A stretch of 37,424 nucleotides of DNA from Candidatus Polarisedimenticolaceae bacterium. GTDB lineage: Bacteria > Pseudomonadota > Gammaproteobacteria > Chromatiales > Chromatiaceae. The first letter of the stretch is position 1. Every line of letters starts with the position of its first letter. This document shows positions 1,015 to 37,165 of the stretch, piece by piece. The notes beneath the pieces were generated by a model. That model had not been told where the DNA came from, made no database searches, and was given only the letters and a program-made list of their open reading frames with translations. The position numbers and the translations under genes were made by a program. The stretch lies in contig JAKISI010000036.1 in NCBI GenBank assembly GCA_021648685.1, positions 1 to 37,424 of the forward strand. The letters are read 5' to 3'.

Positions 1015-1044
1015 AAAAAAAGGGGCGTTTCCGCCCCCTTTTTT
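1015..1044 (-). terminator. Rho-independent terminator of adk
   Basis: On the minus strand, just after the adk stop, a GGGGGCG/CGCCCC stem with a short GAAA loop is followed by a run of T. On the plus strand it also has an A-run before and a T-run after, so it can act in both directions and could shield adk from the mobile-element region. Confidence 0.85.
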
Positions 1045-1045
1045 A

Positions 1046-2407
1046 TCAGCGCTTTTTGCGCGCTGTTTTCTTCTTGGCCGCTTTTTTCTTAACGACTCTC
1101 TTTTTTACAGCGGGTTTTTTCCCAACCGCTTTCCCCTTTGACGCTCCTCTCTTTGCGGCAGTCCTCTTTTTGGCCGCTGCTTTTTTATTGGTTGTTGACC
1201 TCTTCTTGGTGGCCTTCTTTTTAGTTGCTACCTTTTTCTTTGCTGCGGTTTTCTTCTTGGTGGCCTTCTTTTTAGTTGCTACCTTTTTCTTTGCTGCGGT
1301 TTTCTTCTTGGTGGCCTTCTTTTTAGTTGCTACCTTTTTCTTTGCCACGGTTTTCTTCTTGGCGGCCTTCTTTTTAGTCGCTGCCTTTTTCTTTGCCACG
1401 GTTTTCTTCTTGGCGGTCTTCTTTTTAGTCGCTGCCTTTTTCTTTGCCACGGTTTTCTTCTTGGCGGCCTTCTTTTTAGTTGCTGTCTTTTTCTTTGCCA
1501 CGGTTTTCTTCTTGGCGGTCTTCTTTTTAGTCGCTGCCTTTTTCTTTGTCACGGTTTTCTTCTTGGTGACCTTCTTTTTAGTCGCTACCTTTTTCTTTGT
1601 CACGGTTTTCTTCTTGGTGACCTTCTTTTTAGTTGCTACCTTTTTCTTTGCTACGGTTTTCTTCTTGGTGACCTTCTTTTTAGTCGCTGCTTTCTTTTCT
1701 GGTGTTGTTTGTGGTTCTGTTTTTGCAGGAGGCTCTATGGCTTCGGGCTGCTCTTTTTGTGTGATGCCATCCAGAATTTTGCAGGCAGCATCAAAGATGT
1801 CATCGATATCACCAGTGCCCTGGATCTGCCCCAGTTTGTTCACAGCCCGGTAATATTCAACCAGTGGAGCCGTCTGCTGCCGGTATACCTTTAGCCGGTT
1901 GTCGATGGTGGTTTCATTGTCATCACTGCGCTGGTGAAGTTTGCCGCCGCATTTGTCACAGATGCCGTCAACCTGTGGTGGATTGGTGTACATGTTGTAC
2001 ATCTGGCCGCAGGACTCACAGGTGCGCCGACCTTCCAGTCGCTGCATGATGATGTCGGGGTCTACGTCGATGAGCAGTGATATATCCAGCGGCTGCCCAA
2101 GTTTATCGAGCAGCTCATCCAGTGCTTCAGCCTGGGCTGTGTTGCGTGGAAAGCCATCCAGAATGTAGCCGTTTTTTACATCAGGCTGGCTGAGTCGATC
2201 CTGAATCATGCCCAGTACAATCTCGTCCGAGACCAGCAGGCCGGCATCCATAGTCTGCTTGGCCTGGATGCCGAGGGGGCTCTGTGCTGCTACCGCTGCC
2301 CTTAGCAGATCTCCGGTTGAGATTTGCGGGATACCATACCGCTGAACCAGTTTTTTTGCCTGAGTTCCTTTGCCAGAACCTGGCGCGCCCAATAGTACAA
2401 TTCTCAT
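1046..2407 (-). CDS. adk: Adenylate kinase with a long lysine-rich, histone-H1-like C-terminal tail
   Basis: Interconverts ATP, AMP and ADP in the cytoplasm. Residues 1-216 are a full-length adenylate kinase (the family is usually about 215 residues). They show the P-loop GAPGSGKGT (7-15), the AMP-site STGDLLR (30-36), DGFPRN (84-89) and a zinc-type LID with Cys130, Cys133, Cys150 and Cys153. After an acidic, proline-containing linker (about 217-237) comes a tail of some 215 residues made almost only of Lys, Ala, Thr and Val. It has about ten 17-residue repeats such as AATKKKTAKKKTVAKKK and ends in a less regular Arg/Lys segment. The tail resembles bacterial H1-like DNA-binding proteins. There is no stop or frameshift at the junction, so the fusion looks genuine. 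The gene is divergent from pfp and followed by a terminator. Binding of the tail to DNA or RNA is inference. Confidence 0.93.
   Translation of the reverse strand: MRIVLLGAPGSGKGTQAKKLVQRYGIPQISTGDLLRAAVAAQSPLGIQAKQTMDAGLLVSDEIVLGMIQDRLSQPDVKNGYILDGFPRNTAQAEALDELLDKLGQPLDISLLIDVDPDIIMQRLEGRRTCESCGQMYNMYTNPPQVDGICDKCGGKLHQRSDDNETTIDNRLKVYRQQTAPLVEYYRAVNKLGQIQGTGDIDDIFDAACKILDGITQKEQPEAIEPPAKTEPQTTPEKKAATKKKVTKKKTVAKKKVATKKKVTKKKTVTKKKVATKKKVTKKKTVTKKKAATKKKTAKKKTVAKKKTATKKKAAKKKTVAKKKAATKKKTAKKKTVAKKKAATKKKAAKKKTVAKKKVATKKKATKKKTAAKKKVATKKKATKKKTAAKKKVATKKKATKKRSTTNKKAAAKKRTAAKRGASKGKAVGKKPAVKKRVVKKKAAKKKTARKKR
1200..1706. repeat. 51-bp tandem repeat array inside adk (about ten units)
   Basis: Units beginning TTCTTCTTGG recur at 1251, 1302, 1353 and onward every 51 bases and encode 17-residue lysine-rich blocks on the minus strand. 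Because 51 is a multiple of three, gain or loss of units keeps the adk frame. Unit sequences differ at a few positions (GTGGCC, GCGGCC, GCGGTC, GTGACC), showing some divergence between copies. Confidence 0.9.
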
Positions 2408-2659: not shown

Positions 2660-3919
2660 ATGACAATGAAGAACGCCTTTTATGCACAGTCTGGAGGAGT
2701 GACCGCTGTTATCAATGCCTCGGCCTGTGGCGTGATAGAGACGGCTCGCAGATACCCCGATAGAATTGGCAATCTCTATGCCGGTCGCAACGGCATCATC
2801 GGTGCCTTGACTGAAGATCTGATCGATACGGCCCAAGAGCCGGATGAGGCCATTGCCGCGCTCTGCTCGACACCTTCCGGTGCCTTTGGCTCTTGTCGCT
2901 ATAAACTGAAAAGTCTGGAAGAGAACCGGCGCGAGTATGAGCGTCTGATTGAGGTCTTCAAGGCGCATGATATTGGCTACTTTTTTTATAACGGTGGTGG
3001 CGACTCTGCCGATACCTGTCACAAGATCTCGCAGCTCTCTGAGAAGATGGGTTTTCCAATCCAGGCGATCCATGTGCCAAAGACGGTAGATAACGACCTG
3101 CCCATTACCGACAACTGTCCTGGCTTTGGTTCGGTGGCAAAGTATATTGCCGTCTCAACACGAGAGGCGAGCTTTGATGTGGCATCCATGTGCAAGACCT
3201 CAACCAAGGCCTTTGTGCTGGAGGTGATGGGGCGTCATGCCGGATGGATTGCAGCGGCGGGCGGGTTGGCGGCAGATGCGGATCATGATCTGCCGATACT
3301 GATTCTGTTCCCCGAGGTTGTCTTTGATCAGACGGCCTTTATCGCTCAGGTAAAGGCGAAGATAGCGCAGTATGGTTACTGCTCGGTGGTGGTTTCGGAA
3401 GGTGTAAAGGGGCCGGATGGCAAGTTTCTGTCCGACCAGGGGCTGCGTGATGCCTTTGGCCATGCCCAGCTGGGTGGTGTGGCGCCAGTGGTGGCCAACA
3501 TCATTCGCGAGGAGCTGGGTGTGAAGTACCACTGGGCAGTGGCGGACTACCTGCAACGCGCCGCACGCCACATTGCATCCAAGACCGATGTTGAGCAGGC
3601 CTATGCTCTGGGCAAGGCGGCAGTGGAGCTGGCGCTGGAGGGCAGAAATGCCATTATGCCGGCCATCATACGTACCTCTGATGAGCCTTATACCTGGGAG
3701 ATCGCAGCCGCTGATCTGGCCGACGTGGCCAATGTAGAGAAGATGATGCCAGAGAATTTCATCACCGCAGATGGCTTTGGTATCACTGATGAGTGTCGCC
3801 GCTACCTCTCTCCACTGATTCAGGGTGAGGATTATCCAGAGTATGAAAATGGGCTGCCTAACTATGTGACGCTCAAGAACGCAGCCGTGCCGAAGAAACT
3901 GGGCGAGTTTAAACTGTAA
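2660..3919 (+). CDS. pfp: Pyrophosphate-dependent 6-phosphofructokinase
   Basis: Phosphorylates fructose 6-phosphate with pyrophosphate instead of ATP, reversibly, in glycolysis and gluconeogenesis. The 419-residue protein has the phosphofructokinase fold signatures GGGDSADT (112-119), PKTVDND (140-146) and MGRHAGW (190-196). Two residues separate PPi from ATP enzymes: Asp115 stands where ATP-dependent enzymes have Gly, and Lys141 in PKT is the PPi-type lysine. The start is placed at 2660 because ATAAGGA lies at 2651-2657; a second ATG two codons later is possible. The gene lies divergent from adk and upstream of the soluble pyrophosphatase gene, so three enzymes of the ATP/PPi economy sit together. 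In related organisms PPi-dependent enzymes also act in the Calvin or ribulose monophosphate cycles, but which applies here cannot be told from the window. Confidence 0.9.
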   Translation: MTMKNAFYAQSGGVTAVINASACGVIETARRYPDRIGNLYAGRNGIIGALTEDLIDTAQEPDEAIAALCSTPSGAFGSCRYKLKSLEENRREYERLIEVFKAHDIGYFFYNGGGDSADTCHKISQLSEKMGFPIQAIHVPKTVDNDLPITDNCPGFGSVAKYIAVSTREASFDVASMCKTSTKAFVLEVMGRHAGWIAAAGGLAADADHDLPILILFPEVVFDQTAFIAQVKAKIAQYGYCSVVVSEGVKGPDGKFLSDQGLRDAFGHAQLGGVAPVVANIIREELGVKYHWAVADYLQRAARHIASKTDVEQAYALGKAAVELALEGRNAIMPAIIRTSDEPYTWEIAAADLADVANVEKMMPENFITADGFGITDECRRYLSPLIQGEDYPEYENGLPNYVTLKNAAVPKKLGEFKL

Positions 3920-3942
3920 CCTGGAGGCTGCCCGAGAATAGG
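3920..3942. repeat. Solitary end of the MITE-like element
   Basis: CCTGGAGGCTGCCCGAGAATAGG directly follows the pfp stop and matches the inward-reading right end of the 843-958 element at 20 of 23 positions. No partner end was seen before ppa, so this is either a truncated copy or the end of a different, decayed element. Confidence 0.5.
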
Positions 3943-4261: not shown

Positions 4262-4816
4262 ATGAACCTGGATAGAGTCAGTTGCGGCAAAGATGCTCCA
4301 AATAAAATCAATGTAATTATCGAGATCCCATCCCATGCAGATCCGGTTAAATATGAGGTGGATAAAGAGTCAGGCGCCATGTTCGTCGACCGCTTCATGG
4401 GCACCGCAATGCACTATCCCTGTAACTATGGCTATGTTCCTCATACCTTGTCCGATGATGGTGATCCGGTGGATGTGCTGGTGGTAACCCCAATCCCTGT
4501 GTTGACCGGAATAGTGATTGAGTGCCGCCCCATTGGCATGTTGAATATGACCGATGAGTCGGGTGTCGACACCAAGATTCTGGCGGTTCCCCTGGCCAAG
4601 ATCAGCCCACTCTACAAAGGGGTAAGAGAGGTTGCTGATCTGCCGGAAGGCCAGGGTTTGCTGAATCAGATTGCTCACTTCTTTGACCATTACAAGGATC
4701 TGGAGGAGGGCAAATGGGTCAAGATCGAGGGGTGGGAAAATGCAGATGCAGCCAAAGCCGAAATTGTCAGCGGGATAGCGAACTATCGGAGCACACCTGA
4801 AAAGCCGAGCTTCTAG
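4262..4816 (+). CDS. ppa: Inorganic pyrophosphatase, family I
   Basis: Hydrolyses pyrophosphate to phosphate, pulling biosynthetic reactions forward in the cytoplasm. The 184-residue length is typical of bacterial family I enzymes. The signature [10 protein letters not shown] spans residues 65-74 with metal-binding Asp66, Asp68 and Asp71. A further conserved acidic site lies in [13 protein letters not shown] (98-110). The N-terminal region shows the substrate-site elements [15 protein letters not shown] and [12 protein letters not shown]. The start at 4262 follows CTGAGGCG. Upstream lies a hairpin and terminator-like leader. Having a soluble PPase next to a PPi-dependent phosphofructokinase is notable, because the two compete for the same substrate; controlled expression of ppa would make sense of the leader (inference). 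Confidence 0.95.
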
Positions 4817-35300: not shown

Positions 35301-36118
35301 GGTAAATCACTGAGCAGCTTGTCGTATGGAACCACCCGAGCCTCTATACCCATGCCGGGGATATAGGGGATCTCCAGGTAGTCAATGATTTCGCCTTTAG
35401 CTGTATCAATAACCAAAAAGTACTGCCCACGCCTTGCGCGAACAGGAGCGAACAGCGTGTTGTCCAATGAGCGTTTATATCTCTCTAGAAAGGCATCCAG
35501 CTTAGCGGACCACTCCTCATTTTTTGCAGTGTATTTTCTGATATCAATAGCGATGGCGGACAGCTTTTCAACGTCGGTAAGTTTTAACGGCTCATAGTAT
35601 TTATAGAGTAGCTGGATTGGCCGCTTTTCTCTAAAGGAGCTGGCAATTATGGTGTTAAAAGATTCTCGCTCTTTAGGGAGGTTAACATAGAGGTATGTTG
35701 GCTCCAGCCCAATGATTTTATTAGCAACAGGTTCTGGAATATCACTATTTATCATGGTGTTTTTGCTGACGATATATAGAGAATCATAGGCATGTATAAC
35801 GGCAACAGGGCGAGCCAATTGAACCATCCATATACCGTAAATCAACGCAGAGAGCTGGAAAATGGCAATGAGCGAGAGATCAAATTTTAGCCCCGGCTTG
35901 CCTGGTTTGAAGATAACCAGAGTGAGCAGCGGCCCAAGCACCAGGTCAACAAACAGGATAATCTGAATGGCTCTTGGGCCATCCTCAAGATCAAAGAAAG
36001 GTGTTTTGTACCAGTAGCCGAGAAGCAGTACCAACAGACAAAGAAAGATGGCGCTGCTGATCCCGATGTGAATGGCAAATGCCTTGAAGCGTGTTATTTT
36101 GTGTCGGTTTATGGACAT
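35297..36118 (-). CDS. Type IV pilin accessory protein, TfpX/TfpZ-like
   Basis: 273 residues. It starts with RFKAFAIHIGISSAIF, then three to four membrane segments (about 12-35, 48-70, 80-100) and a C-terminal soluble domain. RFKAFxIHxGIS, the WYKTPFF loop, FVDLVLGPLLTLVIFKPGK and PVAVIHAYDSLYIV are the hallmarks of the TfpX/TfpZ accessory proteins encoded next to type IV pilin genes in Pseudomonas and relatives, where they modulate pilin assembly. No pilin gene is present here, so it is an orphan. Composition is visibly more AT-rich than its neighbours, and it sits in reverse between argJ and the Nudix gene, which suggests insertion. The start at 36118 is chosen by homology; upstream in-frame ATGs give an unlike extension. 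Confidence 0.78.
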   Translation of the reverse strand: MSINRHKITRFKAFAIHIGISSAIFLCLLVLLLGYWYKTPFFDLEDGPRAIQIILFVDLVLGPLLTLVIFKPGKPGLKFDLSLIAIFQLSALIYGIWMVQLARPVAVIHAYDSLYIVSKNTMINSDIPEPVANKIIGLEPTYLYVNLPKERESFNTIIASSFREKRPIQLLYKYYEPLKLTDVEKLSAIAIDIRKYTAKNEEWSAKLDAFLERYKRSLDNTLFAPVRARRGQYFLVIDTAKGEIIDYLEIPYIPGMGIEARVVPYDKLLSDLP

Positions 36119-36135
36119 GGCTCTACAGGTTGTTA

Positions 36136-36164
36136 TTGCAAAATAAGCGTCATTTTTGTCTATA
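36136..36164 (+). promoter_or_regulatory. Weak candidate promoter of the Nudix-ThiE gene
   Basis: In the 63-base divergent spacer TTGCAA (36136-36141) is followed after 17 bases by TCTATA (36159-36164), or after 19 by TATAGA. The spacer is strongly AT-rich. The call is weak. Confidence 0.25.
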
Positions 36165-36181
36165 GAAATATAGCAGAAAAT

Positions 36182-37165
36182 ATGAGATTTTCTGCTACAG
36201 CAGAGAGCTTGGGAGAGACCATAAACAGACCTATTCATGTTGCCGTAGCCGTAATTCAAAATGCCGCCGGTCAGATACTGATCAGCAAGCGACCGGCACA
36301 CCTGCACCAAGGTGGGTTGTGGGAGTTTCCTGGCGGCAAACTGGAGTCGGGTGAGTCGGTTGGTCAGGCGCTAAAACGAGAGATTTATGAAGAGCTTGGG
36401 TTGCGGGTAAAGGCGCATGCACCACTGATCCGCATAACCCACCACTACCCTGACCGGGTGGTGTTGCTGGATGTTCATCGCGTAACGCGATTTACAGGTT
36501 GCCCCGAGGGGCGTGAGGGACAGCTGCTACGCTGGCTTGCTCCAGAGCAGCTTGGAAACTATCCTCTTTTGCCTGCGGATCGCCCCATTGTCACCGCTGT
36601 TAACCTTCCTGATTGCTACCTGATTACAGGGGCAGACCCGCTGGACAGGAGCGCGTTTCTGCTGCGCATGGAGCACTCTCTGGTAAAAGGGGTGAAGCTG
36701 GTTCAGCTGCGGGCTAAATCACTGACTCCATCGGAATATGGCTCGCTGGCTGAGGCCGCACTCAAGCTGTGTAGAGAGCATGGCGCGCGCCTGCTGCTTA
36801 ATGCGGCACCAGATTGGGTTGAGCCGTTGGGTGCTGATGGCGTTCACTTGACCAGCAAGCAGCTCGCTGATCTCGATGAGCGGCCACTGGATCGCAACTA
36901 TTGGATTGGGGTCTCCTGCCATAGTGCTGATGATCTAGCCAGAGCTGCCGCTCTGGAGCTGGATTTTGCAGTGCTCTCTCCGGTGCTGCCTACAGCCAGC
37001 CACCCGGATGCGCAGCCACTAGGCTGGCGACAATTTGGAGCCTGGGTTGAAATGGCAAGGCTGCCGGTCTATGCATTGGGTGGGATGCGGCGGGAGATGC
37101 TTGATGAAGCACAAGGCTATGGTGCCCAGGGGATTGCAGGCATTAGTGGCCTCTGGCCAGCGTAG
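36182..37165 (+). CDS. Nudix hydrolase (MutT type) fused to a thiamine-phosphate-synthase-like domain
   Basis: 327 residues in two domains. The N-terminal part (about 16-140) is an 8-oxo-dGTPase-like Nudix domain with VAVAVIQNAAGQILISKRP, WEFPGGKLESGES and a complete Nudix box GKLESGESVGQALKREIYEE followed by LGL. The C-terminal part (about 145-327) is a TIM-barrel ThiE/TenI-like domain with LVKGVKLVQLRAKSLT, GADGVHLTSKQL, IGVSCHSADDLARAAAL, DFAVLSPVLPTASHP and VYALGGM. This fusion is recurrent near argJ in gammaproteobacteria (including Pseudomonas). The ThiE half is thought to be non-canonical and its activity is not established. The ATG at 36182 gives the usual start; further upstream extension runs into the divergent gene. 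Confidence 0.88.
   Translation: MRFSATAESLGETINRPIHVAVAVIQNAAGQILISKRPAHLHQGGLWEFPGGKLESGESVGQALKREIYEELGLRVKAHAPLIRITHHYPDRVVLLDVHRVTRFTGCPEGREGQLLRWLAPEQLGNYPLLPADRPIVTAVNLPDCYLITGADPLDRSAFLLRMEHSLVKGVKLVQLRAKSLTPSEYGSLAEAALKLCREHGARLLLNAAPDWVEPLGADGVHLTSKQLADLDERPLDRNYWIGVSCHSADDLARAAALELDFAVLSPVLPTASHPDAQPLGWRQFGAWVEMARLPVYALGGMRREMLDEAQGYGAQGIAGISGLWPA

Follow-up and report, generated by a model that had tools for sequence, protein, structure and literature searches.

A histone-H1-like lysine-rich tail on a zinc-type adenylate kinase and its altered tail-bearing relatives in Gammaproteobacteria

Adenylate kinase (Adk) governs the balance of adenylates in the cell, and its dynamics are a textbook model for enzymes. 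Why should such an enzyme carry a polycationic tail longer than its own catalytic core? The question is raised by a gene in the stretch of 37,424 nucleotides analysed here, referred to as the window. A single uninterrupted frame of 453 amino acids, with an ATG start and no internal stops, joins a complete Adk in frame to a long tail. The initial annotation had described this arrangement from the open frame, and matches to curated models together with the same fusion in relatives bear it out. The parts of the gene are as follows.

1046–2407, minus strand: the full fusion gene, encoding adenylate kinase and its Lys-rich C-terminal extension, 453 aa (open frame; only PF00406 match in the genome)
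1766–2407, minus strand: adenylate kinase core, residues 1–214 (PF00406, TIGR01351 and NF001380 above cut-off; AlphaFold pLDDT)
2363–2389, minus strand: P-loop, residues 7–15, GAPGSGKGT (scored positions unchanged, by definition, in the 82 intact tailed rows scored below)
1949–2020, minus strand: zinc LID, Cys130-Cys133-Cys150-Cys153 (PF05191; all four cysteines in 121 of 122 tailed rows)
1694–1765, minus strand: linker, residues 215–238, 24 residues (sequence; low pLDDT from residue 220 onward)
1049–1693, minus strand: Lys/Ala/Thr/Val tail, residues 239–453, 215 aa, net charge +112 (composition; pLDDT)
about 1201–1690, minus strand: tandem array encoding most of the tail, 51-nt period (17 aa), about 9.6 copies (Tandem Repeats Finder)

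The core scores 251 bits with TIGR01351 (cut-off 168), 186 bits with PF00406 (cut-off 26.8) and 303 bits with NF001380 (above cut-off), and PF05191 matches its zinc LID. Active-site residues were scored at 19 positions in the P-loop, the AMP site and the LID arginines, a list that we take to be that of the E. coli enzyme; all 19 are present in the window protein, as are the four LID cysteines C130, C133, C150 and C153. Sequence comparison with the PDB places 5g3y, 1zin and 1p3j, which we take to be zinc-type (long-LID) Adks, among its nearest relatives. They resemble it in core sequence, P-loop, AMP site and four-cysteine LID, whereas their chains of 217–226 aa leave no room for such a tail. 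AlphaFold, run with five sequences, gave the core a pLDDT of 80–93 per ten-residue block up to residue 210. By these sequence matches the core, which has a net charge of −6, is a complete zinc-type adenylate kinase. The gene is the sole PF00406 match in its own genome (2.95 Mb, 98 contigs, 98.8% complete) and, as the only Adk found there, is presumably the source of the cell's AMP/ADP/ATP equilibration.

The tail after residue 214 is 239 aa long and contains 109 Lys, 45 Ala, 38 Thr and 19 Val, with a net charge of +110. Residues 239–453 are built of lysine triplets spaced by Ala, Thr or Val. The array behind them, whose 51-nt copies match one another at 95% (Tandem Repeats Finder), agrees with the first description of about ten 17-residue repeats over some 215 residues. 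The Arg-rich end that had also been described did not hold up, since the end contains Arg only to a mild degree (6 Arg in the whole 239-aa tail); the tail also contains 6 Pro. Across the repeat stretch, the other two reading frames are interrupted by 9 and 12 stops, which argues that the open tail frame did not arise by chance. With a pLDDT below 50 across residues 220–396 and 421–432 in the five-sequence AlphaFold run, and ten-residue blocks of 33–49 over residues 221–400, the long Lys/Ala-rich C-terminal region is predicted to be disordered. A search of the window protein for HC2 (PF07382) and NF038053 gave no match at E 0.01. Elsewhere in the same genome we observed a free-standing H1-like protein of 158 aa (L153:1486-1959:-, contig C5) with 76 Lys and a net charge of +84. 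It aligns with the Adk tail over 157 residues at 63.7% identity with the low-complexity filter off; it has no Pfam match and reaches NF038053 only below cut-off.

The fusion is present in five other genomes of the genus, and it recurs widely beyond. We counted a protein as tailed when at least 40 residues follow position 214 with a K+R fraction of at least 0.15, or of 0.12 in the active-site scoring, where the lower value lets in L124 and L133. The initial annotation had proposed examining Adks for Lys-rich C-termini. Reading long frames, we found tailed Adks in at least 91 of 369 sampled gammaproteobacterial genomes, spread over 44 family codes; this is a lower bound, as the two class-wide genome listings hold best matches only, and 60 of the 66 genomes with two or more Adk matches were searched. 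The attachment of such a tail to a core enzyme is thus unusual, as first stated, against textbook Adks, but common within this part of Gammaproteobacteria. A one-genome oddity or assembly error was ruled out by the same fusion in independent genomes. The related explanation that an assembly or frameshift artefact has fused two genes has a negligible chance of being right: the fusion is also found in six genomes listed as a single contig (G052, G113, G115, G158, G165 and G343) and in five records (L031–L035), and apart from the draft state of many relatives' assemblies we found nothing in its favour.

All tailed rows are of the zinc type. Two short forms lie apart from them, each as a single clade: the canonical Adk, which has no LID cysteines ("A", support 98), and another one ("B", support 100). 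On a zinc-type tree of 109 rows, the presence or absence of the tail requires three changes against a shuffled mean of 10.6, three being a floor because only 11 tail-less rows are on the tree. This tree omits rows with four or more active-site changes as well as L135, L123, L082 and L046. Within it, the tail is clearly not scattered. Outside the class, most matches listed in a scan of the phylum have frames below 300 aa and a few long frames occur. A plasmid search with the Adk core returned only matches below 60% identity. As a separate observation, a short-type Adk match in G343 (C1:980978-981541, minus strand) lies within a 966-aa open frame, which is possibly another Adk fusion or a long frame only.

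A repetitive tail of this kind might be a repeat expansion that does next to nothing and persists since it leaves the enzyme unharmed. The likeness of the 51-nt copies would fit such an origin. So would the lability of the tail, seen in two members of the genus whose cores are 94% identical and whose tails of 239 and 170 residues differ by 69 aa, and the fall of Lys content with the GC3 of the core (rho −0.42). Against it stand the 44 family codes in which the tail occurs and the persistently high Lys content, with medians of 0.38, 0.34 and 0.31 by GC3 third over a core GC3 of 0.24–0.97 (rows with X omitted). Over the same range, AAG climbs from 0.54 to 0.81 of the Lys codons. High Lys throughout and the rising AAG share are signs of selection at the protein level, along with a degree of mutational pull. 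The last residue is K or R in 87 of the 102 tailed proteins whose stop is seen. The tail is also retained where the active site decays, although the altered copies were found via long frames and this retention is partly a matter of search selection. All the above make a functionless expansion very improbable. DNA-level slippage as the sole cause of the tail composition was considered separately and is not favoured: the fall of Lys with GC3 speaks for a degree of mutational pull, while the AAG share rises.

The most informative relatives are those with an altered kinase. The 19 positions were scored in 122 tailed rows, representing 121 distinct genes because L035 and L085 are the same gene; L134, L090, L127, L131, L046, L219 and L135 were left out as cut, duplicate, slipped or too distant. 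The active site is unchanged in 82 rows and changed in 40, of which 24 have four or more changes. In these 24 heavily altered rows the losses fall mostly in the P-loop and the AMP site: G14 is kept in 4, T15 in 8, T31 in 2, R36 in 8 and D84 in 6. The zinc LID, in contrast, is largely preserved, with all four cysteines in 24 of 24 and the arginines R123, R127, R160 and R171 in 20, 18, 20 and 21. Of the columns that intact rows conserve, a fraction of 0.82 persists in the LID against 0.44 in the NMP (AMP-binding) domain. To judge from the residues lost, the 24 proteins are probably dead as kinases. Judged by their medians, the groups are similar in net tail charge: where the stop is seen, it is +66 for the intact rows (70), +60 for the mildly altered ones (14) and +64 for the heavily altered ones (18). 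The altered relative L123 lacks a Lys-rich tail.

Purifying selection is evident in altered pairs. Three altered pairs have dS below 1.3, namely L144/L052 (dN/dS 0.10, dS 0.65), L118/L121 (0.11, dS 1.24) and L145/L142 (0.28, dS 1.09), compared with dN/dS values of 0.03–0.16 in ten intact pairs; for five further altered pairs, dS was saturated or could not be computed. Loss of catalytic residues combined with purifying selection, one criterion for a pseudoenzyme, is found in the altered relatives and not in the window protein. Regional dN in L144/L052, the least diverged altered pair, is highest in the LID among five regions (0.17 against 0.02–0.06), and this counts against the LID always being the best-kept part. 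The heavily altered rows carry eight family codes and are interspersed with intact tailed rows in a quick tree, in which parsimony gives twelve changes and supported branches force at least three; the tree carries long-branch warnings.

The tailed protein L042, from the same genus as the window protein and the only Adk found in its genome (G003, contamination 5), has the P-loop GAPDSGEGT and two scored positions changed, which may be an assembly error or a real loss. An altered tailed Adk is likewise the only match in G411 and G420 (completeness 72 and 90).

Does alteration go with a second Adk? A changed active site was found in 15 of 23 tailed genomes that have a canonical short Adk and in 6 of 55 that do not (Fisher p 2.8e-6), the test covering 78 of 80 genomes because G116 and G289 have no usable core. 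After correction for ancestry, two supported independent pairs remain and the sign test gives p 1. The raw counts are strong, but the independent lineages are too few to separate the link from shared ancestry, and the idea that the tailed copy is released from catalysis by a second Adk is suggestive only. Of the six altered rows in genomes without a canonical Adk, five are accompanied by another short Adk match. Counter to the trend, an intact tailed copy persists in 8 of the 23 genomes with a canonical Adk, and in the window's own family L137 of G405 has an intact zinc-type active site and no tail, with a second short Adk alongside.

The genes next to the Adk gene suggested another line of explanation. 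The features at the two ends of the gene are listed below.

2408–2659, no strand: intergenic region of 252 bp from which the Adk gene and pfp diverge (sequence)
2660–3919, plus strand: PPi-dependent phosphofructokinase (pfp), divergent neighbour (NF010675, 652 bits)
4262–4816, plus strand: inorganic pyrophosphatase (ppa; NF002317, 281 bits)
1015–1037, minus strand: intrinsic-terminator-like hairpin with a T run just past the Adk stop codon (by eye; the scan reported only its plus-strand form, and its 2 sites are fewer than the shuffle mean of 4.0)

The two profile matches confirm PPi-PFK and pyrophosphatase as neighbours. From this proximity it had been argued that a phosphate-polymer role deserved attention, and the tail may be supposed to bind polyphosphate or to organise polyP granules, tying Adk to PPi and polyP metabolism. 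The neighbourhood is indeed constant, as the divergent upstream gene at the 85 tailed loci with upstream DNA is pfp in 74, ppa in 11 and neither in none, whereas neither gene occurs at any of the 35 loci of canonical short Adks for which upstream DNA is present. Two matches to PPK2 (PF03976) in the window's genome also fit, and so does AlgP of Pseudomonas aeruginosa, which PMC9239181 places on polyP granules, its C-terminus being needed for their spacing. No match to PPK1 (PF02503) was found in the window's genome, however, and ppa or pfp also adjoins tail-less zinc-type Adks. Seven of these, judged tail-less by frame lengths of 215–249 aa, have a divergent pfp (G399, G050, G058, G071, G292, G180 and G182), and a few further short Adks have pfp close by, in divergent orientation in G186 and on the same strand in G187, G355 and L070; pfp is on the same strand beside L046 and L134 as well. 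PPi-PFK was missing at E 1e-60 from 5 of 15 tailed genomes (G054, G201, G309, G081 and G336), the 15 having been picked largely for a ppa neighbour. On this evidence the tail does not owe its presence to the neighbour, and the phosphate-polymer argument drawn from the neighbours gains no support. A polyphosphate role for the tailed Adk is possible but weak, and as an account of the tail we consider it quite improbable. A strict link between the tail and PPi-dependent glycolysis was rejected on the same seven tail-less Adks and five genomes without pfp.

The neighbourhood is of use in another respect. Altered tailed Adks have pfp divergent upstream in 37 of 37 copies with upstream DNA, as in the window; L131 is entered here as altered, and 4 of 41 altered copies (L119, L124, L133 and L144) have no upstream DNA. 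They are thus this very gene, eroded at its original position, and not scattered duplicates.

What then is the tail for? Taken together, the results favour a two-job protein, a kinase with a polycationic tail that binds nucleic acid or another polyanion, in which the binding job is selected apart from catalysis; we give this reading a probability of somewhat above one half, about 0.57. The zinc-type domain would provide adenylate equilibration in the window's genome. The disordered tail, with its charge of about +110, would grip polyanions, most likely DNA and/or RNA, acting as the tails of AlgP, PhaF or actinobacterial TopA do, and it would tether the protein to the nucleoid or to transcripts. 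This second role could outlast catalysis. At the same locus in other gammaproteobacteria, many of them with a canonical Adk besides, the P-loop and the AMP site are eroded, but the tail persists together with the zinc LID and most of its arginines. That a core energy enzyme here carries a tail for binding polyanions is reasonable to infer, and the idea gains weight from the occurrence of the tail in 44 family codes and from its retention in copies that have lost much of the active site. Any polyanion can be bound by a polycation, which gives DNA no special standing; nucleic acid is the putative ligand, the nucleoid a putative location, and the altered copies have probably lost kinase activity.

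Another possibility is that the tail merely anchors ordinary ATP/ADP equilibration beside nucleic-acid-bound consumers such as ribosomes and polymerases and has no job of its own. The 82 of 122 tailed rows that keep all 19 active-site positions are compatible with this, as is the status of the window Adk as the only one found in its genome. The 24 rows with four or more changes keep both tail and zinc site, and the dN/dS values of the three altered pairs speak for purifying selection on such copies; on balance we regard mere anchoring as rather unlikely. The initial proposal that the tail places ATP/ADP equilibration accordingly may hold for a part, but the 24 altered tailed copies show that it is not the whole story.

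Under the two-job reading, the LID of the altered copies deserves attention. Retention of its zinc site and most of its arginines suggests that a LID contact with phosphate or a polyanion is still in use, while the cysteines may be kept for folding alone. We tentatively propose, at somewhat less than even odds, that the zinc-type Adk ancestral to much of Gammaproteobacteria gained an H1-like tail and became a two-job enzyme. The kinase half would then have been lost more than once, mostly in lineages with another Adk, leaving a tailed pseudo-Adk of a nucleoid- or RNA-bound class. Its zinc LID and most of its phosphate-binding arginines would remain and may sense ATP or another polyphosphate and so tune the grip of the tail on nucleic acid.

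Both halves of the protein are of known kinds, and the altered tail-bearing lineages are the surprising part. AlgP, as described in PMC9239181, has a long Lys/Ala-rich C-terminal domain that is predicted to be disordered and H1-like in composition, and a fragment of it binds DNA. The window protein shares such a C-terminus, but AlgP carries KPAA repeats, which are absent from the window tail with its 17-aa unit of Lys triplets and A/T/V, and they follow a helical N-terminal domain that is not an Adk. In the phasin PhaF, PMC3574117 describes an unfolded Lys-rich C-terminal part that recognises and binds DNA. As in the window protein, a Lys-rich unfolded part is joined to a domain of another function, which in PhaF binds PHA granules instead. 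The lysine repeats of actinobacterial topoisomerase I (TopA), linked to processivity in PMC7398561, resemble the window tail in chemistry; the substrate of TopA is DNA itself, unlike that of adenylate kinase. Among HC2/Burkholderia-type H1-like proteins (PF07382, NF038053) the likeness reaches a relative and not the window protein, which matches neither model: of seven altered relatives scanned, L145 has a tail scoring 44.6 bits with PF07382 (cut-off 40), and L147 and L150 fall below cut-off.

Long Adks are already on record at the level of annotation, given the length of NF010381/PRK13808, an NCBIfam Adk model of 335 positions where the other Adk models listed have 183–224. The window protein scores 212 bits with it, below its cut-off of 426, and its best stretch covers residues 1–127 only. 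PMC12492129 has the thermal adaptation of Adk as its subject. In the open-access literature, a scope outside which most subscription papers lie, we found no account of a Lys-rich or histone-like Adk tail or of a tailed pseudo-Adk.

If the tail tethers Adk to nucleic acid, energy charge would be coupled physically and directly to the nucleoid in many gammaproteobacteria. As a natural experiment, the altered orthologues show which part of the protein stays wanted once catalysis is not. They also matter for annotation, because heavily altered proteins still pass Adk models despite lost key residues: all seven that were scanned pass the PF00406 cut-off, and one of the seven, L118, passes NF001380 and TIGR01351 with its key residues gone.

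Two further observations concern the window itself. Two adjoining short elements at 730–958 are bounded by inverted copies of a 19-bp repeat; the copies at 843–861 and 940–958 are perfectly complementary, those at 730–748 and 828–846 have 3 mismatches each, and a further copy with 3 mismatches lies at 3920–3938. From their sequence, these elements look like small non-autonomous transposon-like repeats flanking the Adk–pfp region. At 36068–37165, a Nudix-type and a thiamine-phosphate-synthase-like domain, recognised by eye, are apparently joined in one open reading frame.
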